DNA of 64,000 nt from contig NZ_JAPDOD010000028.1 of the NCBI RefSeq assembly GCF_027587205.1, forward strand, positions 1 through 64,000, in the 5' to 3' direction. A program made the translations under genes and the position numbers. The notes beneath the pieces are model-generated. The model was not told the origin of the DNA, searched no databases, and was given only the letters and a program-made list of their open reading frames with translations. Positions 6,380 to 56,475 of this stretch are shown one piece after another; within the stretch, counting starts at the first letter, position 1, and each line of letters opens with the position of its first letter. The stretch is from Solirubrobacter ginsenosidimutans. Its GTDB lineage: Bacteria; Actinomycetota; Thermoleophilia; Solirubrobacterales; Solirubrobacteraceae.

Positions 6380-6430
6380 GGCGGTCGGCAAGGGTAGCCA
6401 TCCACGCCCCGACCCGACTGAAGGATTGGC

Positions 6431-28271: not shown

Positions 28272-28304
28272 TCCAAGAGAGCGGCTCGCGCGAATCTAGT
28301 CCCA

Positions 28305-28871
28305 ATGGACGTACGCGCGCTCGCCGATGAGGATCTCGTGCCCCTGATGGCCAGGGGTGACGCGAGGGCGTTCGAAGCGGTCTATGAGCGCCATTCGGGC
28401 GCGGCCTACTCGCTCGCCTACCGGATGGTGGGCACGCGCTCGGTCGCGGAGGACGTCACGCAGGAGGCGTTCTTGAACCTGTGGCGCAGCGGGGCGCACT
28501 ATGACCGCATGCGCGGTTCGGTGCGGACGTGGATCCTCGGGATCGTCCATCACCGCGCGATCGACGCGCTGCGACGCTCGTCGGTGCACTCGCGAAGGCG
28601 CTCGGACGACGAGACCGCCGCGGAGCGCCTGGAGGCTCCCGACCGCGTCGAGGAGGACGTCGCCCGCCGTGACGAGGCCGCGATCGTGCGCAACGCCATG
28701 GACATCCTGCCCGCCGACCAGCTGAAGGTCATCGAGCTCGCCTACTTCGGCGGTTTCACCCACGTGGAGATCGCCGAGATGCTCGAGGCGCCGGTCGGCA
28801 CCGTCAAGGGGCGCATGCGCCTGGGGTTGAAGAAGATGCGCGAAGTCCTTGCGCAGGGAGCGGTCGGATGA
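28305..28871 (+). CDS. ECF-type RNA polymerase sigma factor (SigK-like)
   Basis: This 188-residue sigma factor has region 2 (FEAVYERHSGAAYSLAYRMV, SVAEDVTQEAFLNLWR, WILGIVHHRAIDALRR) and region 4 (QLKVIELAYFGGFTHVEIAE, APVGTVKGRMRLGLKKMRE). Pattern and length match the SigK/SigL ECF group controlled by RskA-type anti-sigma factors, and such a gene follows with a 4-nt overlap. It should be held inactive at the membrane until a signal releases it. Confidence 0.92.
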   Translation: MDVRALADEDLVPLMARGDARAFEAVYERHSGAAYSLAYRMVGTRSVAEDVTQEAFLNLWRSGAHYDRMRGSVRTWILGIVHHRAIDALRRSSVHSRRRSDDETAAERLEAPDRVEEDVARRDEAAIVRNAMDILPADQLKVIELAYFGGFTHVEIAEMLEAPVGTVKGRMRLGLKKMREVLAQGAVG

Positions 28872-39184: not shown

Positions 39185-39826
39185 TCAGCTGTCGCGCGCG
39201 TCGAGGCAGTCGGCGACCGCGTGGACCGTCTTCTTGGCCTTGGTCGCGAGGCTCGCCGAGACGACGTAGTTGCCCCCGACCTCGGCGTCGGAGACGCCCG
39301 CCAGGCTCTCGACGGAGAGCTGGGCGTCGCGCGGGGACGGATACGGGCCGTCGACGGCGACGAGGGCCTCCGGGCCGCCGAGCGTCCCTGACCACAGGCC
39401 CGCGCCGCTCTTCTTGGTCTGCTTGAGATCGGCCGCGCTCAGGCAGATCAGCGGGCCGTTCTTCTTGGCCGCCTTCGGCTTGGGCGTCGGCGTCGCGGTC
39501 GGCGCGTCCTTCGGCAGCGGCGTCGCCGTGGGAGCGGGCGTCGACTTCGCCTTGGCCGGGTCCGGCGTGGGCGTGTCGACGGGCGCCTGCGTGGCGGCGG
39601 GCGTGGGCGTGGACGTGCTCGTGGGCGCCGTCGTGGGCGCCGTCGTGGGTGCCGTGGTGGGCGCGGCCGACGCCGTGGCCACGGGTGGCGCGGTCTGCGC
39701 CGGGGAGGCCGACGGCGAAGCCGCGACCTGCGCCACCTGCTGGGCCGCCGGAGCCGGCTGCCCGCCGCCTCCGCACCCGGCCAGGGCGAGCGCGAGCAGC
39801 GCCGGCGCGAGCGCGGCCGCCCTCAT
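39185..39826 (-). CDS. Putative lipoprotein with Thr/Pro-rich spacer
   Basis: This 213-residue protein has a signal peptide with lipobox (LALAGC, Cys18), then about 110 residues of Ala/Pro/Thr-rich spacer including APTT repeats and PTPTP stretches. A globular C-terminal domain follows (GPLICLSAADLKQTKKSGAG, then SVESLAGVSDAEVGGNYVVS) and a final Cys that may pair with the earlier one. It should be anchored outside the membrane with a wall-crossing stalk. Its ATG overlaps the stop of the giant secreted protein gene (ATGA). Function unknown. Confidence 0.8.
   Translation of the reverse strand: MRAAALAPALLALALAGCGGGGQPAPAAQQVAQVAASPSASPAQTAPPVATASAAPTTAPTTAPTTAPTSTSTPTPAATQAPVDTPTPDPAKAKSTPAPTATPLPKDAPTATPTPKPKAAKKNGPLICLSAADLKQTKKSGAGLWSGTLGGPEALVAVDGPYPSPRDAQLSVESLAGVSDAEVGGNYVVSASLATKAKKTVHAVADCLDARDS
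39621..39668. repeat. 12-nt tandem repeat in the lipoprotein spacer
   Basis: GTGGGCGCCGTC occurs twice exactly, followed by the variants GTGGGTGCCGTG and a partial unit. On the minus strand it encodes the APTT repeats of the stalk. Copy number could vary by slippage while keeping frame. Confidence 0.65.
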
Positions 39827-42800
39827 CGCCGGTCCCTCCGGCGCGTCTCGACCTTCGCGAGCGCGGGCGTGGCACGCCGGCGCGGGTCGGGGCGGACGCC
39901 CCCGGCGACCAGGAGCAGCGTGAGCAGGGTCATCGCTCCGACGCCTCCGTAGAACCACGGCACACCCGGCTGGTGGGTGGTGAATGCGGACTGACTGGCA
40001 TGTTTCTGGGCCTTTTCCTTTCTGCGGGCGGCGGCCTGGGCGGACGCGGCCCCTCCGGGCGGGATCGGCTGGATGTTCGGTGGGATCGGCGGCACGGCCA
40101 CCGGCGGGACGTTCGGAACCGTCGGCGGCGGCTGCGGGTGAAAGACCGCAGGGACGAGCGGCGGCGCGGGCTGCGGCGGCGCGACGCGCGGCTGGGGCTT
40201 CGGCGGCGCAGGTCGCTCCGGGGCGGCCGGCGGCAGGGGAGCCGGGAACGGGACCGCGAAGTTCGGCAGCTTGGCGGGCGGTGACTCGCCGCTCGGCCCG
40301 GGTGGCGGGGGCGGCGGGGCGCCCGCCCCGCTCGGAGCCCCCTGCGACCGCACGGTGCGCGTGCTCGGCACGATCACGACCGGTCGCACGCCCTCGCGGA
40401 AGACCGTGCCGCACGGGCGGCCGAATCCGCCGGCGAGCACCGTCACCGGCAGCGACGCCCGGCGCGAGCCGACGGTCACGGAGACGGTGGTCGTGCCCGA
40501 GTTGTAGGCGCAGAAGAGGCCGGAGGAGCGGGCGGGGATCGGGCGGCCGTCGTTGTCGAGCTCCGGAAGCCGGGAGCCGAGGCCGCTGGGCAGCACGAAG
40601 TCGCCGATCGTGGGATCGGAGCTCGTGAACGTGTAGCTCGGCAGCACGCACGTGACGCAGTCCGCGGGCGCCGGAATGTTGAGGTAGTTGTCAAAGCCCG
40701 GGAACGTCGGGTCGATCGGCGTCGTCGCGAGGGTCCCGGTCGGGCGCCGGCCGACGGCCTCGAACGCGAGCGTCTGGCTGCGCGCCACCGTCAGCCCGAT
40801 CAGCGGCTTGAGCGCGAGCGAGTCGACCAGCGGGCGGGCTTGGACGCTGACCGTACGCTTGGCGACGTCGACCGCGATCGAGTACCAGGCCACGCCGTTG
40901 TTCTTGGCCTGCTGGTAGCCGAGCGTGGCGCCGGAGATCAGCGGGATGCGCGACTCGAGCGCGACCTCGGGGGGCCATGGGCGGTTGTCGTTGGTGTCGC
41001 CGGGCACGACGACGGCCAGCACGCCCGCGTCGATGAACCGCAGTGCGAGCAGGAACTGATCGCTGTTGCTGGACGTGTTCAGCGGCTGGCTCAGGAACAC
41101 GACGGTCGGCAGGTTCGTGCTCTTGACGGCCTCGAGCTGGGCGTCGAGCCACCTCGACTGGGCCGCGTCGAGCGCCGGCCCGTCCGAGAGCGCCGTCGAG
41201 TTGTCGAGCACGATCGCCCGCATCACGGAGCCGTTCTGGTTGACGTCGAAGGCGTAGTAGCGATGGACGGCGCCGACCGCCGCGCCGCTGTCGACCGGCG
41301 TGAAGCCCGCCGGCGCCGGCCGGGAGCCGAACGGCGCGGGCGCCTGGGCGAACGCGCCGGCCCACGGCGCGAGCTGATCCGAACGGTTGACGAGGTGGTC
41401 GCGCGGGCCGACGACGGCGAACAGGGGCACGTGGCTGAGCGGCTGGAGCAGGCTCGGGAGCCGCAGGAAGTCCTTCTCCGCATTGCCGCTCTGGAACGCG
41501 GTGAGGTCGACGGGCCCGCGCGCGTTGCCGCCCAGGACCGCGAACGCCGGCCCGCCGGGCTGCTGCGCGTACTCGTCGATCTGCTCGAGGGCGGCGTGCA
41601 GGTTGACGTCCGGCTGCGCGTCCTGGGTGCCCGCGCACTGGAACTTGCACTGGACGTTGGAGAAGTACGCGAAGTTCACGGTGTTGGGTGCCGCGACCTG
41701 CGGGTTCACGGTGACCTCGACGTCGGCCGGCGACGCCGTCGGACGGCCGCTGTCGTAACGCCAGATGTGGGCGGTGCGCCAACCGGCCGGCCGTGCTTGC
41801 AGGATGTCGTCGAGTCCCTGCCCCGCCGCGCTGCGGGTGCCCGCGTACCCGCCGACCGCCCACGCGTGCTCGCCGTCCGGGCTCGCGGCGACCGCCAGCA
41901 CGGGGTCCGGCTTGATCAGGCCGTCGCCGACCAGTTGCGTGAGGTTCTGCGTCTGCGTCGGCGGCTGGCTGTGGCTGAGGTCCAGCCATCCGTCCGCGGT
42001 CTGGCGCAGCAGCACGCCGTCCCCGGCCGGGAAGCCGCCGATGTCCCCGCCGAGGACCACGCCGCCTCCCGTCGGGATCGGCGCGGCCGATGAGACGAAC
42101 GCGCGGACCACCCCGTCGCGATCGCGGAACGCGCTCGCGGCGACCGCGATGCCCGAGATCGGCTGGTCGGCGTAGGCGAAGGTCCCGCCGGAGCGTTGCC
42201 GGACCAGCACGACCGAGCGGCCCGCGGCGACGACGCCGCCGTCCGGCAGCCCGGAGACCACGCGCAGGTCGCGATCGAACGGCAACCGCGCGGCCGACGG
42301 ATCCGGCAGGTCGGTCCGCTCGACGTGCTGCCACCGACCACCCGCGCCGCGCTTGATCAGGTTGCCGTCGGAGATCGCGAAGACGTCGTCGCCGGCGACG
42401 GTGACGGAGCTGATCGTCAACCCGTCGTCCTCGGGCGGCGCCTCCTCCGGCGACCACGACTTGCCGTCGTAGTGCAGGATCGTCGAGAAGCGCCCGACCG
42501 CCCAGCCCTGTCCGTCGGGCGCGAAGGCCAGGCCCTGGAGCTCTGATCCGGTGATCTGCGTCGACTGCGGGTCCTCGGTCCAACTCGTCCCGTCCCAGCG
42601 GAGGATCAGGCCCGCACCACCGACCGCGAACGCCGTCGTGGGGCTGTTGAAGGCGACCGCTCGTACCGGCAGCCGGTGCGAGCGCGCCGGGGTGTTCTGG
42701 ATCTGCCAGCCGGCGCTCGCGTCGTACCCGAGCGCGGTGCCGTCGAGCCCGACGGCGAGCGCGCCGGACTCACCGACCGCACCGGTGCTCCCGGGCGGCA

Positions 42801-45144
42801 GAGCGACGCTCAAGAGCGTCGAGCGGTTCGCCTGCGGCCAGGTGGCCATCGGCTCCGGGAGGCGGGCCGTCGCGACGCGTCCGAACGCCACGGAGCCCGC
42901 GAGCCAGCCGTCTTCGGGGGCGCCGAGCAGCAGGCGCCCGGCGCCGGGGCTGAACCCTGGGGCGGCGACCTTCGCCCAGTCGCCGTATTCGAACGTGTGG
43001 ATGAAGTTGGTCTGCAGCGACACCCCCACCGGGCCGCGTGCGGTCTGGAACATCTGATCCGGCACGGCGGCGTCGCCCAGCGGCGCACCGCAGTTCGTCG
43101 CTCGCCCCAGTGGGTCGCACCAGGTGCGCGTCACTCCTCGCGCCGCGTCCTCGTAGTGGGCGACGATCTTCCGGGTCGGATTGCCCGCGGTGGCGGCCCC
43201 GATCCAGACGCCGCCGGCTTCGGCGCGCAGCCCGGTGGTCGTCACCGCCGGCGGGTTGACGGCGAACTCGCCCGTCGCGTCGAGTGCGTCGAGCCCGGTG
43301 ACGATCGGGTCCCAGGGACTGTCGCTGAGCCTCCCGATCCGCGGTGGGATCGGCGCCTGGTTGGCCGTGTTGACGACGTCGACCGCCACCCAGCCGGTGC
43401 CGGGGCCGGTGAGATCGGCGAAGTCAAGCCGCAGCGTGTCCGCGTTGCGGGCTGCGTATCCGCGCGGGCGCGGCAGGGTCTTCAGTCGCCAGGTCCCGTC
43501 GGACAACGCGCCGTACTGGAGGACCGATTTGACCTGGATCGTGCCGCCGTCCGGGCCCGGCTCGCCCTTGAACGGCGGCTCCTGGTTGGGGACGACGAGC
43601 AGTCCGAAGTCGCGGCCGTCGGTCGTCTCGCCCACCTGGAGCTGTTTTGGGGCGAGGCCGTTGACCGGCGTCGAGAGCAGCGGCGCGAGCTCCGTCGAGG
43701 CCGCGCCGTCGCGGCGAAACTGGCCGTCAAAGCGACTCGGGACGCGATGGAAGACGGAGGCGGAGTCTCCGAACACGACGATCCAGGCCTCGCCGCTGGG
43801 TGTCATCTGGCCGCGAACGTCCGTGCTGCGGACGTCGTACGCCGCCCCGTCGCGGTCGGGGTGGCCGGGCTGGTCGGCGTCGCGCAGCACGTCCTGGATG
43901 CGCCAGCCGCCTGCCTCGGTGTACCGCAACAGCACGAGCTGGTTCCCGCGTCGCGTGTAGTCGAGCTGGTGGCCGTCGACGACCGCGGGGGGGCCGGTGG
44001 AGATCCCGGTCGCCCACGTCTCGCCCGTGTTCGTCGTGCCCAGCAGCTGGAGGTTCGTCGCCGGCGCGACCACGTTCGTGACCGCCCGCCCGCCCGGTGC
44101 GACGCGCCCCGGGTTGCTCACCGCGACGTTCTTCGCGATCGGCGACGCGGCCGAGTTGCCGGCCGTGTCGGTGGCGACGACCCGGAAGTCGTATGTGCCG
44201 TCCTCGAGGATCCGGGTATCGAAATCGGTCGCGTAGGGCTCGCGCCCGAGCGACGTGATCGCGGTCCACGAGTCCGCGCCCGCCGGCGAGTGCTCGAAGC
44301 GCACCGAAGCCACGCCGCCCCCGTCCTGCGCCGTGGCGGCGAGGCGGACGACCCCCTGCAGCGGGCCGGCCGGGATCTGCAGCTCCGAGACGGGCGCCTC
44401 CCGGTCGAGCAGCAGGTTGCGCCGCGGGCGCGAGACGAACCTCGCGTCGGGCTCGTCGGTGCTCTTGGCGACCGCGCGGAGGTCGTACCTCCCGCCGGTG
44501 AGGTCTGTCGCGTCGAAGTCGACGCTGAAGCTCGCGTCGAAATCGTCCATCGTGGTGTCGAGCGCGATCTGCTTCCAGTCCTCGGCCCCGGACGGGGAGA
44601 TCTGGAAGCTGACCTCGGTGGGAAAGCTCCTGGAGACCGGCGTCGTCGAGCGCAGGGTCATGTGCGCGCGCAGGGCGGTTCCGGGATCGTCGAGGACGAC
44701 GCTCGTGGCGTCGTTGGCGACCGCGACGTCGCGGACGACGACCGTGGTCTGGTCCCCGACACTGTCGGTGGCGACGGCGCGCAACTCGATGAGCCCGTTG
44801 AGCCGGTCGGGGAAGGTGGTGTCGAACGGCTGGTTGGCCTGGTCGGACCTGACGGGCTGGCCGATCTGCGTCCAAGCTCCGTTCGCGTCACCCTGCGGCC
44901 GGAACGCGAAGACCACGTTGGAGATGGTCCGCCCTGTGCTCGCGACCGCGGTCGCTCGCAAGGTCACCCCACCGAGCAGGCAATCCGGGCACGACTCGCT
45001 CGACGGCGGCGCCGCGAACGTCACGACGGGTGCGGTCGGCGACTGCGCGAGCGCCGAAGGGCCGCCGTCGGGCCCGGTCACCGCGAGGATCGCGAGCACC
45101 GCCGCGCACAGCGCGGCGCAGACCAGCGGACGTCGTCGCCTCAC
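39823..45144 (-). CDS. Giant secreted, C-terminally membrane-anchored protein with degenerate metallophosphoesterase region
   Basis: About 1773 residues. A signal peptide (RRPLVCAALCAAVLAILAV) is followed by three Ig/FN3-like modules (for example VSFQISPSGAEDWKQIALDT and SVRFEHSPAGADSWTAITSL), then propeller-like repeats with AVG-type motifs (AVGGAGLILRWDGTSW, AVGRFSTILHYDGKSW). A region of about 300 residues resembles calcineurin-type phosphoesterases (VPLFAVVGPRDHLVN; VLAVVVPGDTND), but the usual DxH, GD, GNHD and GHxH residues are replaced. A Pro-rich stalk, one membrane helix (GGVGAMTLLTLLLVAGGV) and a basic tail end it. GTG 45144 overlaps the upstream stop (GTGA). Domain calls inferred by eye. 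Confidence 0.82.
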   Translation of the reverse strand: MRRRRPLVCAALCAAVLAILAVTGPDGGPSALAQSPTAPVVTFAAPPSSESCPDCLLGGVTLRATAVASTGRTISNVVFAFRPQGDANGAWTQIGQPVRSDQANQPFDTTFPDRLNGLIELRAVATDSVGDQTTVVVRDVAVANDATSVVLDDPGTALRAHMTLRSTTPVSRSFPTEVSFQISPSGAEDWKQIALDTTMDDFDASFSVDFDATDLTGGRYDLRAVAKSTDEPDARFVSRPRRNLLLDREAPVSELQIPAGPLQGVVRLAATAQDGGGVASVRFEHSPAGADSWTAITSLGREPYATDFDTRILEDGTYDFRVVATDTAGNSAASPIAKNVAVSNPGRVAPGGRAVTNVVAPATNLQLLGTTNTGETWATGISTGPPAVVDGHQLDYTRRGNQLVLLRYTEAGGWRIQDVLRDADQPGHPDRDGAAYDVRSTDVRGQMTPSGEAWIVVFGDSASVFHRVPSRFDGQFRRDGAASTELAPLLSTPVNGLAPKQLQVGETTDGRDFGLLVVPNQEPPFKGEPGPDGGTIQVKSVLQYGALSDGTWRLKTLPRPRGYAARNADTLRLDFADLTGPGTGWVAVDVVNTANQAPIPPRIGRLSDSPWDPIVTGLDALDATGEFAVNPPAVTTTGLRAEAGGVWIGAATAGNPTRKIVAHYEDAARGVTRTWCDPLGRATNCGAPLGDAAVPDQMFQTARGPVGVSLQTNFIHTFEYGDWAKVAAPGFSPGAGRLLLGAPEDGWLAGSVAFGRVATARLPEPMATWPQANRSTLLSVALPPGSTGAVGESGALAVGLDGTALGYDASAGWQIQNTPARSHRLPVRAVAFNSPTTAFAVGGAGLILRWDGTSWTEDPQSTQITGSELQGLAFAPDGQGWAVGRFSTILHYDGKSWSPEEAPPEDDGLTISSVTVAGDDVFAISDGNLIKRGAGGRWQHVERTDLPDPSAARLPFDRDLRVVSGLPDGGVVAAGRSVVLVRQRSGGTFAYADQPISGIAVAASAFRDRDGVVRAFVSSAAPIPTGGGVVLGGDIGGFPAGDGVLLRQTADGWLDLSHSQPPTQTQNLTQLVGDGLIKPDPVLAVAASPDGEHAWAVGGYAGTRSAAGQGLDDILQARPAGWRTAHIWRYDSGRPTASPADVEVTVNPQVAAPNTVNFAYFSNVQCKFQCAGTQDAQPDVNLHAALEQIDEYAQQPGGPAFAVLGGNARGPVDLTAFQSGNAEKDFLRLPSLLQPLSHVPLFAVVGPRDHLVNRSDQLAPWAGAFAQAPAPFGSRPAPAGFTPVDSGAAVGAVHRYYAFDVNQNGSVMRAIVLDNSTALSDGPALDAAQSRWLDAQLEAVKSTNLPTVVFLSQPLNTSSNSDQFLLALRFIDAGVLAVVVPGDTNDNRPWPPEVALESRIPLISGATLGYQQAKNNGVAWYSIAVDVAKRTVSVQARPLVDSLALKPLIGLTVARSQTLAFEAVGRRPTGTLATTPIDPTFPGFDNYLNIPAPADCVTCVLPSYTFTSSDPTIGDFVLPSGLGSRLPELDNDGRPIPARSSGLFCAYNSGTTTVSVTVGSRRASLPVTVLAGGFGRPCGTVFREGVRPVVIVPSTRTVRSQGAPSGAGAPPPPPPGPSGESPPAKLPNFAVPFPAPLPPAAPERPAPPKPQPRVAPPQPAPPLVPAVFHPQPPPTVPNVPPVAVPPIPPNIQPIPPGGAASAQAAARRKEKAQKHASQSAFTTHQPGVPWFYGGVGAMTLLTLLLVAGGVRPDPRRRATPALAKVETRRRDRR

Positions 45145-47108
45145 CGGGTGCTGCCGCTTCGCGTGTAGAAGCGGACCCTCGTGGGCCAATGCTTACGGGT
45201 GATCTCGAGCTTGAGGGTTCCCCGCTTGCCCTTGAAACGCTTGAGCCCGCTGCGCGACACGACCTTGTTCTTGCGCAGCGCCTGCACCCCGACGGTGACC
45301 GGGCGGCGAACGCGGAACGTGACCACCATGACGTAGCGGTTGCCCTTGATCCGCCGCGGCTTGGACACCTTCGGCGAGTAGATCGACGGCTTCTGCTTGA
45401 CGCGCTTGGGCTTCGTCGGCACGGTCGTGATGACCGGTGGCTCGTCGGGCGCGGGCGGCGGCTCGGGCGGCGGCGCGTCCTCCACGAAGATCGGCGGGTC
45501 CGCCACCACCTCGAAAGGCCGGTCCTCGACATCGTCTCCGGCGGTTGCGGCAGGCTTTGCGGTGTCCGTCAGGCGGTAGAGGTGGGGGCGCTGGTAGAAG
45601 CGTTGGTCGACGCCTGTCGGGATGCCGCCGCCAATCGCGGAGCCGCTCGACGTCGCCGCCCAGGCGTCATTGGCCGCGTTCGCGGCAACGGCATCGAGCG
45701 AGCCGCGGTAATTCGCTGGAGCGACCGCGGCGTCGTTCGTCGTCGGGTCAGGCTCGCGGAAGCGGGTCTCCGTCACCGCGCCGGCGCAGCCCACGCGGGT
45801 GAGCACGGGCTCGGCGTACCCGTTGTCGTTGCGAGACGTCCCGCCCACGGCTGGGCGCTCGGTCCCGCCGGCCAGGGCGTCGCCGCTGTCCGGGAACACG
45901 GAGAGCGAATTCCAGATGTACGACGACTGGCCGTCCGGAAGGCCGCTCGAAGTAGGCGCGTACGTGAAGGCCGTGGCGGAAGGCGTGCAAGCCGCCCGGC
46001 CGCTGAGGGCGAACGGCACCACTGGAGCCGCTTGCCGGCCAGGGAGGATGCGGCCGGTGATCTGGAGGTTTCCCGCCCCGACGGTGTTGCCGGCCACCCA
46101 CCCGCGCCCGGACGGGTCGAGGTCGACCGCGACGAGGTTGGTCCGCCATGGATCGTCCGGACCGGGAACCGTGGGTGGCGTGAAGGGAAAGGGCGCGAAC
46201 GCGCCGCCATCGGAGCGCAGGAGCTGAGCGGGTGCGGACTCGCCAGGGTCCGGCCGCACCTGATCTTCGGGTTTGACGCCATCTTGGGAGCTGTGGCTGG
46301 TCCACCGGACCGCGACGCCGATGCGGTGACCGTCGGCGTCCACCCTGGCGGCCGCCGAGCCGAACCGTCCGCGCAGCGACGGCGAAGAGATGTCGGGTGT
46401 GTCGTCGTTGAGCTTTGTCCCGTCCCAGTGCAGGCGCACGCCCTCGGGGCCGAAGAACCAGCAGTCGTCCCACGCGTAACATGCGCCCGCGCGGACGCTT
46501 GCGATCTCCGGCGACAGCACTTTCACGCGGGTCTCGGCAGGTATCTCGAGCGGCTGCCAGGCGAAGCTCGAACCGTCATAGCGGCAGACGGTGGGAACGC
46601 CGGAACCGGTGAGCGAGCCGCCGATCAGCCAGTAGTCGAGCTTGCCGGCCCACACGACCGTGTCGCCGTAACAGGTGCTTGCGCCGGGAAACGTGGGGTC
46701 CGGATACCAGCGGGTGCCGTTGAAGAGCCAAACGCCGAATGGCGTCGGCGGCGGCGAGGGGTTGATCTGGAACCTCGTCGTAGCCGCCAAGCCGCGGTTC
46801 CATGCGCGGAACGCCATCGAGGTGACGCGCAGGTAGCACTGGCTCTGATAGCCGCGGTCCTTTTCCGCATTGACCGCCGGACAGCCGAGCGATGAGGTGT
46901 CCACCGGCAGGCCATCGGTGCCGAACGGGTACGGCGTGATATCGACCCAGCAAGGCTTGCCCGGGCTCGGGGCGGCCGGCGTCGCCGGATCGGTCGTCTT
47001 CGCGCAGGCGGTCGCCGCGCTCGCCGACGGCGCGGCGATGGCAAACATGGACGCGACGCAGGCACCCACGATGAGGGCGAATGAACGCGTAGAAGTTCCG
47101 ACCCGCAC
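45141..47108 (-). CDS. Large secreted protein of unknown function, first gene of the giant-protein set
   Basis: From GTG 47108 the product has 655 residues with a signal peptide (TRSFALIVGACVASMFAIAA, cleaved near ASA); ATG 47198 would add 30 residues that do not look like a signal. The mature part has paired Cys, Trp-rich propeller-like segments (YWLIGGSLTGSGVPTVCRYD, CWFFGPEGVRLHWDGTKLND), a Pro-rich linker with PPPEPPPAPDEPP, and a basic C-terminal Ig-like domain (RRPVTVGVQALRKNKVVSRS). It resembles the propeller part of the next gene product. No enzyme motif seen. Its stop overlaps the start of the giant protein gene. Confidence 0.78.
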   Translation of the reverse strand: MRVGTSTRSFALIVGACVASMFAIAAPSASAATACAKTTDPATPAAPSPGKPCWVDITPYPFGTDGLPVDTSSLGCPAVNAEKDRGYQSQCYLRVTSMAFRAWNRGLAATTRFQINPSPPPTPFGVWLFNGTRWYPDPTFPGASTCYGDTVVWAGKLDYWLIGGSLTGSGVPTVCRYDGSSFAWQPLEIPAETRVKVLSPEIASVRAGACYAWDDCWFFGPEGVRLHWDGTKLNDDTPDISSPSLRGRFGSAAARVDADGHRIGVAVRWTSHSSQDGVKPEDQVRPDPGESAPAQLLRSDGGAFAPFPFTPPTVPGPDDPWRTNLVAVDLDPSGRGWVAGNTVGAGNLQITGRILPGRQAAPVVPFALSGRAACTPSATAFTYAPTSSGLPDGQSSYIWNSLSVFPDSGDALAGGTERPAVGGTSRNDNGYAEPVLTRVGCAGAVTETRFREPDPTTNDAAVAPANYRGSLDAVAANAANDAWAATSSGSAIGGGIPTGVDQRFYQRPHLYRLTDTAKPAATAGDDVEDRPFEVVADPPIFVEDAPPPEPPPAPDEPPVITTVPTKPKRVKQKPSIYSPKVSKPRRIKGNRYVMVVTFRVRRPVTVGVQALRKNKVVSRSGLKRFKGKRGTLKLEITRKHWPTRVRFYTRSGSTR

Positions 47109-47379
47109 GGCGCAAGTGACCGTAGCCCAGCGCCGGTGCACCAAGCAATGGGTTACACAAATGGTTAACGTCGAACACGCGGGTTGTGAACGGTTCATTC
47201 ACGCTTGTTCTGAGTTGTGAATCGATGTCATCGAGCGTCGCCAAAGGTGAAGCGAGTCTTCACCGGTCCATTACCTAGCGTCATCCGCGGGCGGATTACC
47301 TCCCGCTTAGCAGTCACGTCGGCCCGAGGGGGGCCGCCGGAGCGCTGTTTTCTCGCAACAACTCAAAGGAGCAACTCGC
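47109..47379. promoter_or_regulatory. Divergent intergenic region with TGTGAACGGTTCA site
   Basis: The 271-bp spacer separates two secreted-protein genes. It contains TGTGAACGGTTCA (47185-47197) followed by TTCAC, then TTGTGAATCGATG at 47214, and GGTGAA/TTCACC around GCGAGTC (47244-47262). A closely similar site, TGTGAACGATTCA, occurs upstream of the RTX-like gene at 54971. It is less GC-rich than surrounding DNA, as expected for a promoter region. AAAGGAG lies before the gene at 47380. Confidence 0.4.
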
Positions 47380-48801
47380 ATGACGGGTCGCATGACTGGT
47401 GCGCGCAAGCGCGCCGGCGTGATCGCGGTCGGGGCTGGGATCGTCGCCTCCTTGGCCTTCGCAGCACCAAGCTTCGCCGCGCCGCCTGCCGCGGGCGCGA
47501 ACTGCCAGCCGAACGGGCGCATCGCCGCGGGCGGCGCCACGCTCGCCAACAACGCGCAGCGCATCGTGTTCGAGCCGGCCTTCCGGCGCGAGATCTGCGG
47601 GCCGGTCCCGGGGGGCCCGACCGACGCCAACAACGAGCCCAACAGCGATACGCGCATGGTGCTCTACAACTACGTCGGCCGCCCCACGGGCTCGGGCAGC
47701 GGCATCAACGGCGCCCAGTGCCGCGCCGACGCGTTCGAGGGCTCCGACGTGCCGTACACGACGGCTCAGCTCGCGCTGCTGCGTGCTGCCAAGCCGGCCA
47801 CGACGGATCCGAACTGCTCGCTCTTCCAGAGCCTGACGGTCCCGTTCGCGCCGCAGCCGGCGTACCCGGATGCCTCCGATGCCACCACCGTCGGCATCAT
47901 GTCGTTCCCGCTCGCCGGCTCCGCCGTCGCGATCGGTTACAACCTCACCGCGGCCGCGTGCGGCGGCTCGACGCCTCCCGCGTCGATCCAGCTCGACTCC
48001 CTGCAGGCCTCGCGCCTGTTCGGCGGCGACACCGCGACGTGGAATGACGCCGCGCTCGTGGCGATCCAGCCGGTCGGCTCCACGCTGGCCAACTGCGCGG
48101 TCGGCGTGAGCCGCTTCGCGCGCCTGGACAACTCGGGCACGACGACGATCTTCAAGAGCTACCTGAACAAGGCCGATGGTGCCCGCGCGCTGTGCGACGG
48201 CACCACCTGGAGCGCCCGTAGCGGCCAGAACGGCTCGAACTTCCCGTCCGGTGGCACGTGCACGCCGGTCTCCTACGTCAGCGGCAACCCGGCGGTCATC
48301 GACGCGACGGCCGGCACGGTCGGCGGCCTCGGCTACGGCGATCTGTCCGATTGGCGTGTGCGCCAGCCGCAGCTCGGCCTCGCCTCGGTCCGCAACCAGG
48401 CCAACGACGCGTACGTCAGCCCGCTCGCGGGCCTGGGCTCCAACTGCTCGTTCGCGGGCGCGTCGCTGCCGGCCGGTGGCGCCAACGGCGCCGTCGGCAT
48501 CGCCGGCAACGCTTGGGCCTCAGACCTTCCCCCGGCCACCAACAAGTCCGACGTCACGTTCGTCGGCGCCGGCTACCCGATCTGCGGCTTCACGTTCGGC
48601 CTGGTCCGTCCGGGCCTCAGCGCGGGCGCCGGCACGGGTGCCGTCGCGCGTCTGAGCGACAACCAGCGCCGCACGCTCTACTCCTACCTCCTGTTCGCGC
48701 TGTCGCCCACCACCCAGGCGCAACTCTCGGCGAACTTCTACGCCCCGGTTCCCGCGACGTTCCTGACGTCGATCCGCACCGGCTACAACTCGAACTTCTA
48801 G
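47380..48801 (+). CDS. Secreted PstS-like substrate-binding-fold protein
   Basis: This 473-residue protein has a signal peptide (RAGVIAVGAGIVASLAFAAP, cleaved near SFA). The mature part matches the phosphate-binding PstS fold: GGATLANNAQRIVFEPAFRR, FEGSDVPYTTAQLALL, FPLAGSAVAIGYNLTA, LDSLQASRLFGGDTATWND and RLDNSGTTTIFKSYLNKADG. Residues of the SGT phosphate loop are present. It has no lipobox and no Pst transport genes nearby, so it is likely a secreted or wall-bound binding protein, perhaps adapted to surface structure. AAAGGAG precedes ATG 47380; the beta-helix protein gene follows after 16 nt. Confidence 0.83.
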   Translation: MTGRMTGARKRAGVIAVGAGIVASLAFAAPSFAAPPAAGANCQPNGRIAAGGATLANNAQRIVFEPAFRREICGPVPGGPTDANNEPNSDTRMVLYNYVGRPTGSGSGINGAQCRADAFEGSDVPYTTAQLALLRAAKPATTDPNCSLFQSLTVPFAPQPAYPDASDATTVGIMSFPLAGSAVAIGYNLTAAACGGSTPPASIQLDSLQASRLFGGDTATWNDAALVAIQPVGSTLANCAVGVSRFARLDNSGTTTIFKSYLNKADGARALCDGTTWSARSGQNGSNFPSGGTCTPVSYVSGNPAVIDATAGTVGGLGYGDLSDWRVRQPQLGLASVRNQANDAYVSPLAGLGSNCSFAGASLPAGGANGAVGIAGNAWASDLPPATNKSDVTFVGAGYPICGFTFGLVRPGLSAGAGTGAVARLSDNQRRTLYSYLLFALSPTTQAQLSANFYAPVPATFLTSIRTGYNSNF

Positions 48802-48817: not shown

Positions 48818-50071
48818 ATGAGCCACACACTCGCCGCGTCGCGGCTGAGCCGGTGGGGTATCGCGATGGCTGCGGCCACCGCGGGCCTGCTGAGCGTCAG
48901 CGCCGCCGCGAACGCGACGGTCTACCACCCGTCGAGCTCCGGTAACGCCTTCCGCCAGGCCGTCCTGGACGCGAACGCCAACCCGGGCTTCGACAAGATC
49001 ATCGTCGACACGACGTTCACCACCTTCACGGCGACGAACCTCACGATCACCGACGATCTCTACATCACGAGCGACCACAAGCACGACGGTGGCGACCCGA
49101 ACTTCTTCGGTCCGGCCGTCAGCGGTGGCTCGGTCGACGTCCGCCCGGCCAACTTCATCACGGTCAACCCGGGCGTGCGCCTCGAGATCGCGGGCATCGA
49201 GTTCAACCAGGCGTCTGAGAACGGCTTCGCCACGATCTTCAACAACAACGGCAAGCTGCGCCTGGACAACATGGCGTTCCTGGGCAACTCGGGCAACATC
49301 GTGTCCCAGGCGGGCGCGAACGCGTCGACCGTCATCACCAACACGACGGTCACCGACAACGCCTACACCGCCCCGACGGTCCTTTCCAACGGCGGCGGCT
49401 CGGTCACGATCAACAACTCGACCCTCGCCGACGCCCCCGGCGGCGGCCCCCAGGTCGACGGTCCGTTCGTGATGCGCAACACCGTGCTCTCGTTCGTCGG
49501 CTCGCAGAGCTGCTTCACGACCCCCGGGCCCGGCTCGTCGAACAACTGGTCCACCGACACCTCCTGCGGCCCGACCGCCGGCGTCGGCGATCCGAAGATC
49601 GACTTCGTCTTCTACTACAGCGGCCCGACGCAGACGCGTCCGCCGCTGGCCGGGAGCCCGCTGATCAACGCCGGCAACCCCGCCACCTGCGCCTCCAGCG
49701 ACCAGGGCTTCCGCGTTCGCCCGGCCGCCGGCGGCACGTGTGACATCGGCGCGGTCGAGGACGGCGCCGTTCGCGACACCACTCCGCCCACGTGCGCGGT
49801 GACGGCGACCCGCCGCGGCCCGGACGAGCAGGACGTCACGGTCTCCGACACCGGTTCGGGCCTCGGCTACGACAGCGTCTTCTCCGAGGAGATCGCGATC
49901 ACCAACGGCACCGTCGCGTTCACCGGTCTCCCGCCGCTCGGCGGCATCCCGGCTGATCCGGCGCGTCCCGGCAACACCGTCGTGACCGCGGTCAAGGCCA
50001 ACCAGTCGCTGAAGACGCGCTGGTCGTTCACTGCCCGCGACTGGGCCGGAAACACCCAGGCCTGCTCGTGA
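48818..50071 (+). CDS. Secreted right-handed beta-helix protein (choice-of-anchor Q type)
   Basis: This 417-residue protein has a signal peptide (RWGIAMAAATAGLLSVSAAA, cleaved near ANA). The body has parallel beta-helix repeats (NPGVRLEIAGIEFNQASENG, GKLRLDNMAFLGNSGNIVSQ, STVITNTTVTDN, SVTINNSTLAD) and ends its helix with PLINAGNPATC, RVRPAAGGTCDIGAVE, the choice-of-anchor Q motif. A C-terminal Ig-like domain with Cys (PPTCAVTATRRGPDEQDV) follows. It is probably a surface polysaccharide-binding or structural protein. No catalytic residues identified. GAAAGGCGA precedes the ATG. Confidence 0.85.
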   Translation: MSHTLAASRLSRWGIAMAAATAGLLSVSAAANATVYHPSSSGNAFRQAVLDANANPGFDKIIVDTTFTTFTATNLTITDDLYITSDHKHDGGDPNFFGPAVSGGSVDVRPANFITVNPGVRLEIAGIEFNQASENGFATIFNNNGKLRLDNMAFLGNSGNIVSQAGANASTVITNTTVTDNAYTAPTVLSNGGGSVTINNSTLADAPGGGPQVDGPFVMRNTVLSFVGSQSCFTTPGPGSSNNWSTDTSCGPTAGVGDPKIDFVFYYSGPTQTRPPLAGSPLINAGNPATCASSDQGFRVRPAAGGTCDIGAVEDGAVRDTTPPTCAVTATRRGPDEQDVTVSDTGSGLGYDSVFSEEIAITNGTVAFTGLPPLGGIPADPARPGNTVVTAVKANQSLKTRWSFTARDWAGNTQACS

Positions 50072-50103: not shown

Positions 50104-50181
50104 ATGAACAAGCGCACCTACCGCAAGCCGGTCCTGAAGCGCCTCGGGCTGCTTCGCCGCCTCACCCGCTACACGTTCTGA
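50104..50181 (+). CDS. 25-residue peptide with lasso-peptide-type leader motif (candidate RiPP precursor)
   Basis: The peptide begins MNKRTYRKPVLKRLG and ends LLRRLTRYTF. It fits the RRE-recognition motif of lasso leaders exactly, YxxPxLxxxGxxxxxT: Tyr6, Pro9, Leu11, Gly15, Thr21. After the Thr only Arg-Tyr-Thr-Phe remain, so there is no normal core peptide. The stop overlaps the next ATG (TGATG), and the beta-helix gene lies 32 nt upstream. Four genes facing it encode a PqqD/RRE protein, B2-type protease, HPr-kinase-like protein and nucleotidyltransferase. Too short for routine gene calls. Alternatives are a chance frame or a peptide tag used by the RRE protein. Confidence 0.6.
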   Translation: MNKRTYRKPVLKRLGLLRRLTRYTF

Positions 50182-50420
50182 TGCTGCGGGCCGTACTCGT
50201 CACCGCCTCCCTCGCGCTCGCCACCGGACCGGTGGCGGCCGCGGGGGCGGCGACACCCGACCGCGCCGCCTGCAAGGGCGGAACGGTCGCGCGGATCTCA
50301 GGCAAGAGCACGTGCCTGGCCAAGGGCCGGGCGTGCGCTTCGAGCAAGCAGAAGGAATACAAGAAGCACGGCTATGCCTGCTCGCACGGCCGCCTGAAGA
50401 AGGTCAAGCAGGAGTTCTGA
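50181..50420 (+). CDS. Small secreted Cys- and Lys-rich protein
   Basis: This 79-residue protein has a signal peptide (LRAVLVTASLALATGPVAAA). The mature part has four Cys (ACKGGTVARI, STCLAKGRACASS, YACSHGRLK) likely forming two disulfides and is strongly basic. The pattern Cx6-7C, then Y..YGF/YAC..G.L occurs as a short module in Solirubrobacterales secreted proteins. ATG 50181 overlaps the stop of the 25-residue peptide gene, so the two are translated together. Its 3' end overlaps the HPr-kinase-like gene by 17 bp. Function unknown. Confidence 0.72.
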   Translation: MLRAVLVTASLALATGPVAAAGAATPDRAACKGGTVARISGKSTCLAKGRACASSKQKEYKKHGYACSHGRLKKVKQEF

Positions 50421-51351
50421 GCAGCGCTCGCACGAGCTCTGCCGTGTAGCCCAGGTCGGTGCCGGACCGCAAGGTGTAGCACCGGACCTGGGCCAGCAGA
50501 GCCGCGATGGCCTTCAGATGCGCCTGGGTCCCGGCGGGCTGCGTGAGCAGCACGTCGGGGACCAGCCGCAGATACGCCTCACCGGGATCGAGTGGCATGA
50601 CCTCTCCCGGGGAGTCATAGACCACCTCGGGGAACACGATCACGCGCGGTTCGCAGCGCTCGACCGGGGTCACGCCGAACGCGTCCTCGAGCCGGATCAG
50701 GCGCTTGGGGAACCCGTCGCGCCGCGGCGTGCCCTCGAGCGCGAAGCGCTCCGCACTGGCATCGGTGACGCCGGCCGCGTCGGCGAAGCCGAGGGCCTCC
50801 AGACGATCCTCGCCGTGGGCGAGGAAGACGAGGTCGTCGGAGACGAAGCCCAGCCCGGCGCGCACGAGCGCCACCGTCAGGGTGGACTTGCCCGAGCCGG
50901 TCGGGCCGGCGACGAGCACGCCGCGGCCGTCGAGCTCCAGGCAACCCGCGTGCAGGCAGTAGCGGTCACGGCGCTCGAGCAGCTCCATCAGCGCGATCGT
51001 GGCCAGCGGGTGGGTGGCGAGATACAGCTCGCGCCCGCTGAAGCCGGTGTCGCACTGCAGCCGGGCGACGCCGGAAGTGGCATCGCAGCGCAGCCGCACG
51101 CCGCGCAGGTCGCCCCACAAGGTGTCGGTGTCCGGGAAGTAGGCGACGTCGCCGTAGGGCGTCTCATACACCGGCCGGCTGGCATCGGTGGGAGGCGCGA
51201 TCGCGCGATCGGGCCCTTCGAGGAACTCCAGCCGCAGCGGATGCGCGCCGACCGGTGAGCGGAACGCGCGCAGGCGCAGCTCCATCTCGAGCTGGATGTC
51301 GGGCGCGCCGTGGACCTCGAGGTCGACGCCGTGAAGTGAGTAGGTACTCAC
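50404..51351 (-). CDS. HPr kinase-like (HprK-related) ATP-binding protein of a peptide-modification cassette
   Basis: This 315-residue protein has an HPr-kinase-type P-loop GPTGSGKST (149-157) preceded by YCLHAGCLELDGRGVLVAG and followed by GLGFVSDDLVFLAHG, the Walker B-like SDD. The N-terminal half lacks the HprK regulatory domain and resembles HprK-related kinases of exopolysaccharide loci and of paeninodin-type lasso clusters, where the enzyme phosphorylates the precursor peptide. GTG 51351 overlaps the B2 stop (GTGA), so it is the last gene of an NTase-PqqD-B2-kinase operon. No HPr or PTS gene is near. Substrate unknown, possibly the facing 25-residue peptide. Confidence 0.85.
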   Translation of the reverse strand: MSTYSLHGVDLEVHGAPDIQLEMELRLRAFRSPVGAHPLRLEFLEGPDRAIAPPTDASRPVYETPYGDVAYFPDTDTLWGDLRGVRLRCDATSGVARLQCDTGFSGRELYLATHPLATIALMELLERRDRYCLHAGCLELDGRGVLVAGPTGSGKSTLTVALVRAGLGFVSDDLVFLAHGEDRLEALGFADAAGVTDASAERFALEGTPRRDGFPKRLIRLEDAFGVTPVERCEPRVIVFPEVVYDSPGEVMPLDPGEAYLRLVPDVLLTQPAGTQAHLKAIAALLAQVRCYTLRSGTDLGYTAELVRALLRTPA

Positions 51352-51785
51352 GTGACCGGGACGCGGTAGATCTCCGCGAAGCGCGGACGTGGGTCCTCGC
51401 GCTCGAGGTACGGCTCGCCGTCGAGCGTCAGCCAGCAATGGCCGTCGGCGACGCCGGTCGGGTCCAGCCCGAAGCGCAGCTCGACCGCCACGCCCTGGCG
51501 CCGCAGGAACCAATAGAGCGTGAGCCCGCGGGTCAGGCAGCCGGTCCGCACGACGGGGTGCGCGAGCCGCGGGGCGAGCGCGACCAGGCGGTCGACGCGG
51601 TCGGGCGACAGCGGCCGCCGCGGCGTGCGCGGCGGGCGGGTCAGTAGGCGGCTCATGCGCGGCAAGGGCAGCCGCAGCAGCAGCGGGACGCCGCTCGCGA
51701 ACGCGGTCACCGAGGCGAACAGCGCGAACTCGCGCGGGCTCTGCAGCTGCGCGAACGCCCCGAGCCGGTCACGGAGCCTCGACAA
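51348..51785 (-). CDS. Lasso-peptide B2-type transglutaminase-fold protease
   Basis: This 145-residue protein matches the Transglut_core3/B2 family that cleaves RiPP leader peptides. The catalytic Cys83 lies in RTGCLTRGLTLYWFLRR, His116 in ADGHCWLTLDG and Asp122 follows. The N-terminal part has two weakly hydrophobic segments. The TTG at 51785 gives a 17-bp overlap with the PqqD gene; no other start is available before the conserved part. Full-length for a stand-alone B2. The neighbours (RRE protein, kinase, nucleotidyltransferase) match lasso-type clusters, but the cyclase is missing. Confidence 0.85.
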   Translation of the reverse strand: MSRLRDRLGAFAQLQSPREFALFASVTAFASGVPLLLRLPLPRMSRLLTRPPRTPRRPLSPDRVDRLVALAPRLAHPVVRTGCLTRGLTLYWFLRRQGVAVELRFGLDPTGVADGHCWLTLDGEPYLEREDPRPRFAEIYRVPVT

Positions 51786-52047
51786 GCAACCGCTCCTCGC
51801 GAAGCTCGTCGATGAACTCGAGGACGTCGGCCGTGATCGTGGCCGCCGGGGCCTCGAACTCGCCGGTCATCACGGCCACGATGTCATCGACCGAGCGCTC
51901 GCCGTCGCACAGCTCCCACACGCGCGCGCCCACGTCGTCGAGGGCGTAGTAGCTGCCGTCGTCGAGCCGCAGGAGGACCGTCTGACCCTGGGCCTCTTGC
52001 GCGAGGACCCCGTCGCGCTGGCGGGGACGGAGGGCGATGTCTGGCAT
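51769..52047 (-). CDS. PqqD-family peptide chaperone (RiPP recognition element, B1-like)
   Basis: This 92-residue protein is a complete PqqD/RRE fold: LLRLDDGSYYALDDVGARVW, ELCDGERSVDDIVAVMTGEF and a C-terminal helix ADVLEFIDELREERLLV. RRE domains bind the leader peptide and present it to tailoring enzymes. In lasso systems B1 reads the YxxP motif, which is present in the 25-residue peptide encoded at 50104. ATG 52047 lies 6 nt after the nucleotidyltransferase stop. Second gene of the four-gene operon. Confidence 0.9.
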   Translation of the reverse strand: MPDIALRPRQRDGVLAQEAQGQTVLLRLDDGSYYALDDVGARVWELCDGERSVDDIVAVMTGEFEAPAATITADVLEFIDELREERLLVEAP

Positions 52048-52053
52048 GTGCGG

Positions 52054-53253
52054 CTACTCCCGGTGCTCGAGGGCGTGGATCTGGCCGTTCAGCCGATAGT
52101 CCTGCACGACCGACCAAGGACGGGAGAGCGCGGCGCGCGCCAGCGGCGCCTGCGCACGGGCGCGGCGGACGTACGCGCGGGCGAGCGAGCCGCGGGCGCC
52201 GGGCTCGCCGTCCCACCCGCTCACCAGCACCTCGCGCGGCGGCGCGGCCATCCAGCGCAGCGAGCGCACCGGAAGCTTGCGACCGGAGCGCAGCACGCGC
52301 AGGCCGACGAGCCGGCGCCCGACGCGCGGGTCGAAGGCGGCGGGCCGCAGCGCGTCGAGGCCCTCGGCCGGGATGTCGAATCCGACCTCGTGGGCGGCGA
52401 AGAGCGCGAGGAAGAGGCGCGCGTCGAGCCGGTAGGCGCTCGAGTCGGCGGCCAGTCGCGACCAGTCCAGCGGCTCGGCGGCGACGATCCAGGCCATGTC
52501 GCCGAGCTGGCTGAGCGCGCCCCCACTGCCGTAGCGGTCGTGGTTGCCGCCGAGGCGATTGCGGGTGAAGTGGAAGCCGACGTGCAGGAGCAGGTCCTCG
52601 CCGGCGGGCAGGCGGTGGCCGGGGACGGTGGGGTGCGGCCGCGAGCGCTCCCACAGGCCGGCGACGTCGAAGTGGCGGCGCTCGTCCTTCATCGCGATGT
52701 GGTGGTGCAGCTCGATCGCGAGCAGCCCGTCCTCGGCGACCAGCGCGGGGTCATGATGGTGATTGGCCCGCATCCACCCGGCCGAGTGCTGCTCCTCGCC
52801 GCTGCCCGGCGGGCTGCGGTAGCCGAGCGCGGCGAGCGCGGCGTGCGCGGCGTCGAGCTGCTCGCTGCGCACGAGCATGTCGACGTCGAGCATCTCGCGC
52901 ACGGCCGGGTCGTCGTACACCGTGGCGGTCAGCGCCGCGCCCTTGAGCAGCATCGCCTCGACCCCGGCGGCGGTGAGCGCGGTCAGCGCGGCGCTCAGGG
53001 AGGCGGCCACGAACGCGCTGCGCGCGGCGTTGGCGAAGTAGCGCTCCTGCAGGCGTGCCTGGAGGTCGGCGGGCACGCCCGTGTCACCCGCCAGGTGTTG
53101 CGCGAGCATCGGCTCGAGCCGATGCCAGGCCGCCGCCTCGACGGCGCGCTCGTAGCTCGCCCGCGCCCACGACGAACGATCGGCCGCGGTGGCGGGGGTC
53201 GGGCGCGCGGCTTCGACGAGCAGCGCGAATTCGGGAGTGAGAGCTTTGGACAT
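52054..53253 (-). CDS. Nucleotidyltransferase family protein (NTP_transf_5) of the peptide cassette
   Basis: This 399-residue protein has the NTP_transf_5 active site LKGAALTATVYDDPAVREML followed by DVDMLVRSEQLDAAHAALAA, where DVD is the metal-binding pair. ELHHHIAMKDER and LLLHVGFHFTRNRLGGNHDR are typical later blocks. Such proteins accompany HprK-related kinases and PqqD proteins in exopolysaccharide and lasso-peptide loci; one studied group adds sugars or nucleotides to phosphorylated peptide. ATG 53253 is preferred because the longer frame adds 27 residues without conserved features. First gene of the operon; a terminator hairpin lies upstream. Confidence 0.85.
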   Translation of the reverse strand: MSKALTPEFALLVEAARPTPATAADRSSWARASYERAVEAAAWHRLEPMLAQHLAGDTGVPADLQARLQERYFANAARSAFVAASLSAALTALTAAGVEAMLLKGAALTATVYDDPAVREMLDVDMLVRSEQLDAAHAALAALGYRSPPGSGEEQHSAGWMRANHHHDPALVAEDGLLAIELHHHIAMKDERRHFDVAGLWERSRPHPTVPGHRLPAGEDLLLHVGFHFTRNRLGGNHDRYGSGGALSQLGDMAWIVAAEPLDWSRLAADSSAYRLDARLFLALFAAHEVGFDIPAEGLDALRPAAFDPRVGRRLVGLRVLRSGRKLPVRSLRWMAAPPREVLVSGWDGEPGARGSLARAYVRRARAQAPLARAALSRPWSVVQDYRLNGQIHALEHRE

Positions 53254-55014: not shown

Positions 55015-56475
55015 TTACATATTTCGGCGGGCTAACAGGTACGGCACCGTCCGCATCAGGATCTTCACATCGGTCCACAACGACCAGGTGGCGACATAGA
55101 GATAATCGAGCTTGAGCATCTCGGCGAGCGGCAGGCGGGTGGCGCCCATGACCTGCCAGTGGCCGGTCATGCCCGGCGTCAGGAACAGGCGGCGGCGGTC
55201 CAGCCCGGTGATGCGCCCGTCGTCGTCGGCGACCAGGGGCCGCGGGCCGACGAGGCTCATCTCGCCCTTGAGGACGTTGACCAGCTGCGGCAGTTCGTCG
55301 AGTGACAGCGAGCGCAGCGTACGCCCGACGCGGGTGATCCGGGGATCGCCCGCGACCTTGAACAGGTGACTGTCCTCGTTGGCCGCGGTGAGCGTGGATT
55401 TCAGTGTGTCGGCGCCACGCACCATCGTGCGGAACTTCCACATGTCGAACAGCCGCCCCTCGCGGCCGACGCGGGGCTGGCGATAGATGACTCCGCCGGG
55501 ACTGTCGAGGCGGATCGCCACCGCGATCACCGCCAGCAGCGGCGACAGGACCGCCAGCAGGAAGGCGGCGCCGACGGCGTCGAAGGAGCGCTTGAGCAAC
55601 GCGGACGAGCGCGAGAGCCCGAAGTGGCGCAGCCCGAGCAGGGTCAGGCCCTGCACGTCGTCGATCTCGATCGCGGACCCGACGACCTCGAGGATGCGCG
55701 GCAGCACGCTGACCCGCGCACCGGTGGCCTTGGCCTCGCGCACCAGGTCCAGCGTCATCTGCGGGCGCGGCGCGTTGGGCTCGATGATCACGCGATGGAC
55801 GGCGAACTCGTCGACGAGGCGATGCAGAGTGGCCGCCGCCTCGACCGCGAGGGCGTCGTCGGGCGCCTCGGGGAGGTCGATGCGGACGACGACCGCCGCG
55901 TGTGAGCCGGTGGCGGCGAGCTTGTCCTGCAGCCGTTCGCATGAGCTCTGAACGCCGACGAACAGGCAGCGCTCCTGCGGTGTCAGCGAGCGCGCGACGC
56001 CCCGCGCTCCGCGGCGCGCGAGCAGCGTGAAGACGAACATCGTGCCCCACAGGACGACCAGCTGCAGCGCGCCGAGGTCGCCCTTGAGCAGGTGGTCCTG
56101 CAACACGACGAACAGCAGCGTGTAGAGCGTCGCGAGCTGGAAGAGCTGCGGCGCCTGGTCGAGCGTCGTCTTGTTGACGACGATCTCGTCGCGGTCATAG
56201 ACGCCGCCGAGCTTGGCGGCGATGAGCACGAGCGGCAGCGCGAGCAGCAGCTGGAGCCGGAGCTCGTCGGCGCCGACGACCGTCACGCAGATGACGACGG
56301 CGCCCGCGGCGGCGAGCACGTCCGCCGTCGCCAGCGCGCGGCGGAAGAGCGCGTCGCGCCGGCGCACCTCCGCGCGCGGGTCGCGCTCGCGGATCGGCGC
56401 CGGCAGGCGCGTCAGGCGCCGGCGGCGGCGCGGACTCGTTTCAGACGCCCGTGGGCCGTCGAGGAGTTCCGGCAT
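55015..56475 (-). CDS. Exopolysaccharide polyprenyl glycosylphosphotransferase (WbaP/CpsE-type sugar transferase)
   Basis: This 486-residue enzyme transfers a sugar-1-phosphate to undecaprenyl phosphate to start polysaccharide synthesis. A cytoplasmic start and four to five N-terminal membrane helices ([60 protein letters not shown]) are followed by a nucleotide-binding-like domain and another helix. The catalytic domain follows ([56 protein letters not shown]). The catalytic Asp-Glu of LSLDELPQ is present. It is probably the initiating enzyme of the island's polymer. Confidence 0.94.

Follow-up and report, generated by a model that had tools for sequence, protein, structure and literature searches.

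The 64,000-nucleotide stretch of Solirubrobacter ginsenosidimutans contig NZ_JAPDOD010000028.1 analysed here (the window) contains, at 50104..50181 on the plus strand, a gene for a 25-residue peptide with a lasso-type leader motif, next to a minus-strand cassette of four genes. The translation, MNKRTYRKPVLKRLGLLRRLTRYTF followed by a stop, matches YxxPxLxxxGxxxxxT exactly (Y6, P9, L11, G15 and T21), has only the four residues R-Y-T-F after the threonine, and carries a charge of +9. A GTG at 50068 offers an alternative start giving 37 residues; the ATG is favoured because the corresponding frames of two other genomes, G003 and G411, carry an ATG almost at this position. Across the six frames of the window the motif occurs three times, against 0.017 expected from 60 order-3 Markov simulations, and twice with a stop no more than six residues past the threonine, against 0.0 expected. 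Given three occurrences in one window, the motif alone is not proof of a gene; that proof comes from conservation. The peptide gene starts 32 nt behind the stop of a gene for an exported beta-helix protein (choice-of-anchor Q; 48818..50071, plus strand).

The cassette encodes an NTP_transf_5 nucleotidyltransferase of 399 residues (52054..53253; PF14907, E 1.5e-41), a discrete PqqD-type RiPP (ribosomally synthesized and post-translationally modified peptide) recognition element (RRE) of 92 residues (51769..52047; PF05402, E 6.8e-22), a B2-type leader peptidase of 145 residues (51348..51785; Transglut_core3; NF033537, 59.9 bits against a cut-off of 33) and an HprK-like kinase of 315 residues (50404..51351; GTG start, Walker A motif GPTGSGKST). 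The nucleotidyltransferase and RRE genes are separated by a 6-nt gap, the RRE and B2 genes overlap by 17 nt, and the B2 and kinase genes share a 4-nt GTGA overlap. Residues C83, H116 and D131 of B2, which we take to be the catalytic triad, are unchanged across 46 aligned relatives. The best kinase match is TIGR04352 (E 1.9e-15), whose 56.7 bits lie far under the cut-off of 200, and its Hpr_kinase_C match (31.6 bits) falls slightly under the cut-off of 33.3; the His and Asp-Asp of the solved HPr kinase 3tqf line up with the window protein. The original prediction thus recovered the peptide, its exact motif and short tail, the four families and their spacings, whereas its picture of a peptide directly facing the four genes needs correction: the two are convergent, with 222 bp from the peptide stop to the kinase stop. 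Between them lies a 79-residue Cys-containing exported open reading frame (50181-50420), which overlaps the peptide gene in TGATG and has no counterpart in loci L001, L003 or L062.

Aligned with its nearest solved relatives by sequence, PbaB1 (9x90) and TbiB1 (5v1u), the window RRE shows no gaps. In the mapping that we made, D74 lines up with LppB D70 and F78 with the pocket-dividing Phe (F74/F83); in LppB, D70 is reported to hydrogen-bond the leader Tyr and the Phe to separate the pockets (PMC13381572). D74 and D37 are identical in the RREs of the window, L003, L001 and L002, while F78 is replaced by Leu in L002. Judged by this alignment, the residues that read YxxP are retained in the window RRE.

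The peptide frame is conserved. In G003 the first trace was a weak NF033521 match (E 2.6) 10 kb from the cassette; the peptide there, MKRKYRKPVLRRLGLLRRLTRFTF, occupies the same place in an island syntenic with window positions 39.8-58 kb, directly behind a beta-helix-like gene. Over 24 codons the two genes show 10 identical codons, 11 synonymous and 3 non-synonymous changes (dN 0.17, dS 1.26), and 21 of 24 residues are kept while the exported-protein neighbour upstream is just 29% identical. Additionally, a protein-database search with the peptide returned 22 clusters, namely the window's own, 20 at E<=0.0031 and one at the chance level (E 6.9). All 20 end in R-[YF]-[TS]-F-stop; their N-termini vary, and the final 23 residues are almost constant. 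Because the search admitted candidates of 22-70 residues, this shared stop was not imposed by it; should gene callers miss frames below about 29 residues, the shortest listed, the number of clusters would be a minimum. When all database clusters except that of the window (21) are pooled with the peptides of the window and G003 and the two of G411, the 25 tails comprise RYTF (18), RFTF (3), RFSF (2), GAFSF (1) and GSDWRW (1), the last from the chance-level match, so that 24 of 25 peptides end in [YF]-[ST]-F. Taken together, these observations establish that the 25-residue frame is a real gene and that it is under purifying selection relative to G003.

G411 carries two copies of the peptide gene and provides a second context. 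One copy, MTTRKRYAKPRLRRLGLLRTLTRFSF, follows a gene for a 399-residue exported protein at a distance of 12 nt, and peptide starts fall 12-43 nt behind an exported-protein gene in the window, G003 and G411-C85 alike. The copy MRRRYVKPKLTRLGLLRKLTGAFSF lies outside any island of the window type, diverging at about 160 bp from a PqqD-HprK pair (PqqD, E 3.5e-22 in Pfam; Hpr_kinase_C, 25.8 bits, under the cut-off of 33.3). In the 18.5 kb around it, the only counterparts of window proteins of at least 80 residues are the RRE and the kinase, and no cyclase was found near this set. Five B2 queries at the G411 peptide locus gave a best E of 0.61, in L119. Since B2 and nucleotidyltransferase genes do not adjoin the peptide there, the minimal association consists of peptide, RRE and HprK rather than four genes. 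In all three genomes the peptide shares a contig with RRE and HprK genes, at a distance of 222 bp in the window, about 10 kb in G003 and about 160 bp in G411.

All four cassette genes recur in the same order in L001 and L003, with identities to the window of 49-53% for the nucleotidyltransferase, 62-65% for the RRE, 59-60% for B2 and about 53-56% for HprK; the contig of L001 may have been misplaced in G001. B2 has 237 relatives at E<=0.001 in the protein database, the closest besides the window's own being 94% identical and from a Solirubrobacter metagenome-assembled genome (MAG), and a scan of named genomes with a B2 pattern gave 76 matches, three of them relatives. A B2 profile matched 2 of 232 genomes in the order of G003 (E 2e-73 in G003 itself and 1.7e-6) and 22 of 399 genomes in a sample of the class, where G003 ranked first and the next match stood at 1.4e-21; at most 16 candidates per genome were scored in the order and at most nine in the class sample, so that misses are possible. 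The order of G002 (43 genomes) holds one further, weak B2 match (E 2.5e-7); a 121-genome sample of the order of G001 gave none besides G001, the B2 protein as query found no match in viral contigs or plasmids, and the B2 profile none in the PDB. Within the order of G003 only G003, the genome with the strong B2 match, has a convincing peptide match (E 1.9e-14); the next best (E 0.003) lies within a 315-residue frame, and 158 genomes have some match at E<=5. In the class sample the peptide profile reached E<=0.01 in 2 of 399 genomes, G003 and G411, and in the order of G411 (129 genomes) no further genome reached it. A motif scan of L001 and L003 found no peptide, and the flank of L003 is too short to reach it.

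Is this a lasso peptide system? The leader motif YxxPxL...T and the pairing of a discrete RRE (B1) with a B2 peptidase are present, though in G411 B2 does not lie beside the peptide. The asparagine-synthetase-like cyclase is missing, as the original prediction had stated: two Pfam-confirmed Asn_synthase queries from G411 reached at best E 0.78 in the window, no Asn_synthase occurs among 55 window proteins scanned with Pfam (a scan limited to the peptide and frames of 80 residues or more), and L062, L003 and L001 have none. Elsewhere, PF00733 has no match in the G003 assembly, whose completeness is unknown, against at least one match in 23 of 24 genomes examined. A lasso core is long enough to thread and contains an Asp or Glu ring acceptor; here 24 of 25 peptides have four or five residues after the threonine and no Asp or Glu, and the chance-level 25th has six residues with one Asp. 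The window system is therefore not a lasso peptide, two defining features being absent, and having an RRE and B2 in common with lasso systems is not enough to class it as one. A decayed lasso locus is ruled out by purifying selection relative to G003 and by the conserved [YF]-[ST]-F-stop in 24 peptides; G003 also does not show a longer precursor together with a cyclase at this place. With the frame and its short tail conserved in relatives, neither of the two refuting outcomes named by the original prediction came about.

With slightly more confidence than doubt, we propose that the set is a minimal RiPP system in which recognition is of the lasso type, lasso cyclization does not occur and the precursor is nearly all leader. 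By analogy with the linear polyphosphorylated peptides (LPP) and pseudomycoidin, the RRE would bind YxxPxL of the peptide and the HprK-like kinase would phosphorylate the Ser or Thr of the C-terminal [YF]-[ST]-F. The T/S swap keeps a hydroxyl and the Y/F swap shows that the Tyr hydroxyl is not needed, which leaves Ser/Thr as the only hydroxyl common to all these tails and hence as the candidate kinase target. For lasso precursors, HprK-like kinases and PsmN are reported to target the C-terminal Ser (PMC9266682), and LppK is reported to phosphorylate S3 of a linear LPP core (PMC13381572). NTP_transf_5 would then probably add a sugar or nucleotide to that phosphate, and B2, encoded in cis in the window and perhaps provided in trans in G411, would cut near the leader Thr to release a product of three or four residues, [R]-[YF]-[ST]-F. 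Thr is described as the penultimate leader residue in lasso precursors (PMC10368454), whereas LPP cleavage is reported after Thr (PMC13381572); a cut one residue past Thr would give YTF and one after Thr RYTF. The peptide would be co-produced with an exported surface protein from within a polysaccharide island, and its product would probably serve the cell surface. Of the two substrates offered by the original prediction, the tail is favoured and the leader itself is less likely, since 24 of 25 peptides end in [YF]-[ST]-F. The observation behind the original prediction is confirmed, and its interpretation is supported in part.

Several observations weigh against this proposal. The family matches of the kinase are remote, and the peptide-RRE-HprK set of G411 has no B2 or nucleotidyltransferase gene beside it; instead, the weak B2-like match of G411 (E 7e-5) and its nucleotidyltransferase (NTP_transf_5) sit in L120, a separate polysaccharide-type locus that also holds two Asn_synthase genes and an HprK-like match (E 1e-8). 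The G003 peptide lies about 10 kb from its cassette, L001 of G001 has the cassette but no detectable peptide (best E 1.49), its contig being only 10.3 kb long, and the GAFSF tail shifts the spacing from Thr by one residue. Moreover, Thr occupies the putative target position in 21 of the 24 [YF]-[ST]-F tails, and an S3T variant is reported not to be phosphorylated in LPP (PMC13381572), so the tails mostly offer a residue which the LPP kinase did not accept.

The strong positive charge, the near whole-length invariance and the surface-island location would also suit a stand-alone cationic peptide with another job, such as polysaccharide or membrane binding, that lies beside the cassette by descent. 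We regard this as unlikely, because the lasso-type RRE motif is exact and matched by the RRE pocket, because the peptide adjoins RRE and HprK genes in the different context of G411, and because, within the order searched, its presence goes with that of the cassette. Also unlikely, and slightly more so, is that the peptide serves as a free leader in trans: lacking a core of its own, it would dock on the RRE and activate the kinase or nucleotidyltransferase towards a different substrate, perhaps exported proteins encoded in the island. The short distance of the peptide from exported-protein genes fits such a role, as do exported proteins of related loci that end like the peptide tails (..GSFTF in L003, ..GTYGF in L001). 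However, conservation of the tail is about equal to that of the leader, more than a peptide serving only as a leader would require, and the window protein taken by eye as their counterpart (end of frame at 39185) ends in ARDS rather than FTF.

We see a small chance that the set is a true LPP system with an exchanged peptidase. It combines RRE, HprK and nucleotidyltransferase with no cyclase in a polysaccharide island, and G002, a MAG named Bacillota, has an RRE-B2-HprK-nucleotidyltransferase set, together with longer precursors whose leader is similar (..LGLLRRITHVLSGVGDPDPPRG..). Yet the leader motif is not LPP-like (no HQxIxFETxxS), the tail has four rather than tens of residues, neither an SpI-like peptidase nor an MsbA-like transporter is among the 55 scanned window proteins, and LPPs are reported to be confined to Bacillota (PMC13381572). 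The G002 precursors themselves (L112:6275-6451 and L113:1181-1384) have leaders ending in GLLRRIT and C-termini rich in His, Pro, Gly and Asp, and lie on contigs other than that of the cassette. Finally, the motif by itself occurs three times in the six frames of the window, which would be in keeping with a chance frame or with a lasso cluster that has decayed or been truncated; in view of the purifying selection relative to G003 and the [YF]-[ST]-F-stop of every peptide besides the chance-level one, this explanation is highly improbable.

The surroundings bear out the predicted tie to a polysaccharide and surface-protein island. A bacterial sugar transferase (55015..56475, minus strand; Bac_transf, E 4.7e-61) has a 66% identical counterpart in the G003 island. 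A 1788-residue exported protein (39823..45189, minus) has counterparts of 41-43% identity beside the cassette in L001 and L003, a 685-residue exported protein (45141..47198, minus) has a 40% identical counterpart directly downstream of the G003 peptide, and a PstS-like exported binding protein (47380..48801, plus; a weak PBP_like_2 match under the cut-off) has a 32% counterpart in the G003 island. The exported proteins of L003 (15189-15923) and L001 (4182-4637), related by eye, end in ..PGSFTF and ..TGTYGF, which may be coincidence. At 27344-29590 the window contains a pair of closely spaced sigma-70-family genes and, after them, an anti-sigma-K-like gene.

Further B2 loci occur in the class sample. 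In 17 loci of 16 genomes of 1.5-2.5 Mb (L030-L041, L043, L044, L046, L048 and L050), the B2 match lies near HemW/HrcA/DnaJ-like genes, named by eye, with an RRE in 16 of 17 and HprK in 15 of 17. No Asn_synthase was found near this type of locus in the 16 genomes; in G249 a weak match lies on the B2 contig more than 200 kb away. Lasso-leader matches above the family cut-off occur in 13 of 24 genomes searched, all off the contig with the B2 match, and one (G076) lies directly behind an Asn_synthase match. Scattered leader peptides are found at L056-L061 (match near 1501) and L063-L076; 10 of the 14 loci L063-L076 have a WQCS core in common (for example ECSNWQCSVTVPP), and several of the peptides lie directly behind genes for cytochrome-like or other exported proteins. 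By eye, 11 of 20 leader-peptide loci examined start no more than 120 nt behind a gene with an export-like N-terminus. On the reverse strands of L064 (near 6360-6410) and L067 (near 5360-5450), leader peptides ending in CQGSFTF and CQGSFGF sit behind related exported proteins of 659 and 682 residues. A database search with the G249 peptide returned one protein, P0143, 100% identical. The pattern suggests, as a lead rather than a result, that one processing set acts on scattered peptides.

A broader and distinctly more tentative possibility is that the window system represents an undescribed miniature RiPP class, in which a cyclase-free lasso-type RRE/HprK machine would act on a near-invariant C-terminal [YF]-[ST]-F to give a small, conserved product bearing phosphate or sugar, with peptide genes directly behind exported-protein genes; in a parallel G239-type clade, a single HprK-RRE-B2 operon would serve scattered lasso-leader peptides, of which two end in ..GSFTF and ..GSFGF. 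Among the titles and abstracts that searches of an open-licence library returned, none describes the 25-residue peptide. If the proposal is true, lasso recognition parts would work without lasso chemistry in Actinomycetota, on a tail far shorter than in the LPP precursors described so far. Gene callers easily skip genes this short, so similar systems would go unseen. A 25-residue substrate with four defined enzymes would make a directly testable system, and may hint at the role of HprK/PqqD/nucleotidyltransferase sets in polysaccharide loci.

Among known systems, HPr-rel-A (TIGR04352) usually marks a neighbourhood of HprK-related kinase, PqqD-like and nucleotidyltransferase genes near polysaccharide genes, but the window kinase scores far under that cut-off, and B2 and the peptide are present in the window. 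PQQ and mycofactocin likewise combine a PqqD-like RRE with a product excised from a very short segment of a conserved precursor, yet use radical SAM enzymes and no B2, HprK or NTP_transf_5. Phosphorylated lasso peptides of the paeninodin/pseudomycoidin type are reported to share the RRE, B2, a kinase acting on a C-terminal Ser and, in pseudomycoidin, the nucleotidyltransferase-like PsmN, linked to a hexose on the phosphate (PMC9266682); they are described with a cyclase and a threaded core, whereas no cyclase was found here and four or five residues follow the threonine in 24 of 25 peptides. Closest are the LPP described from Bacillota by Popov et al. in 2026 (PMC13381572), in whose reported loci a discrete RRE, an HprK-like kinase, an NTP transferase, the lack of a cyclase, a polysaccharide setting and a YxxP leader with Thr at the cleavage site all resemble the window. 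As reported, LPP systems differ in having an SpI-like serine peptidase instead of B2, an MsbA-like transporter, the leader YxxPxVLxHQxIxFETxxS and precursors of 35-200 residues with variable C-termini. With RRE, HprK-like kinase and NTP transferase in place, and the peptidase, transporter and leader motif of LPP all absent, the window system is not LPP as defined, though by analogy it probably works like one.

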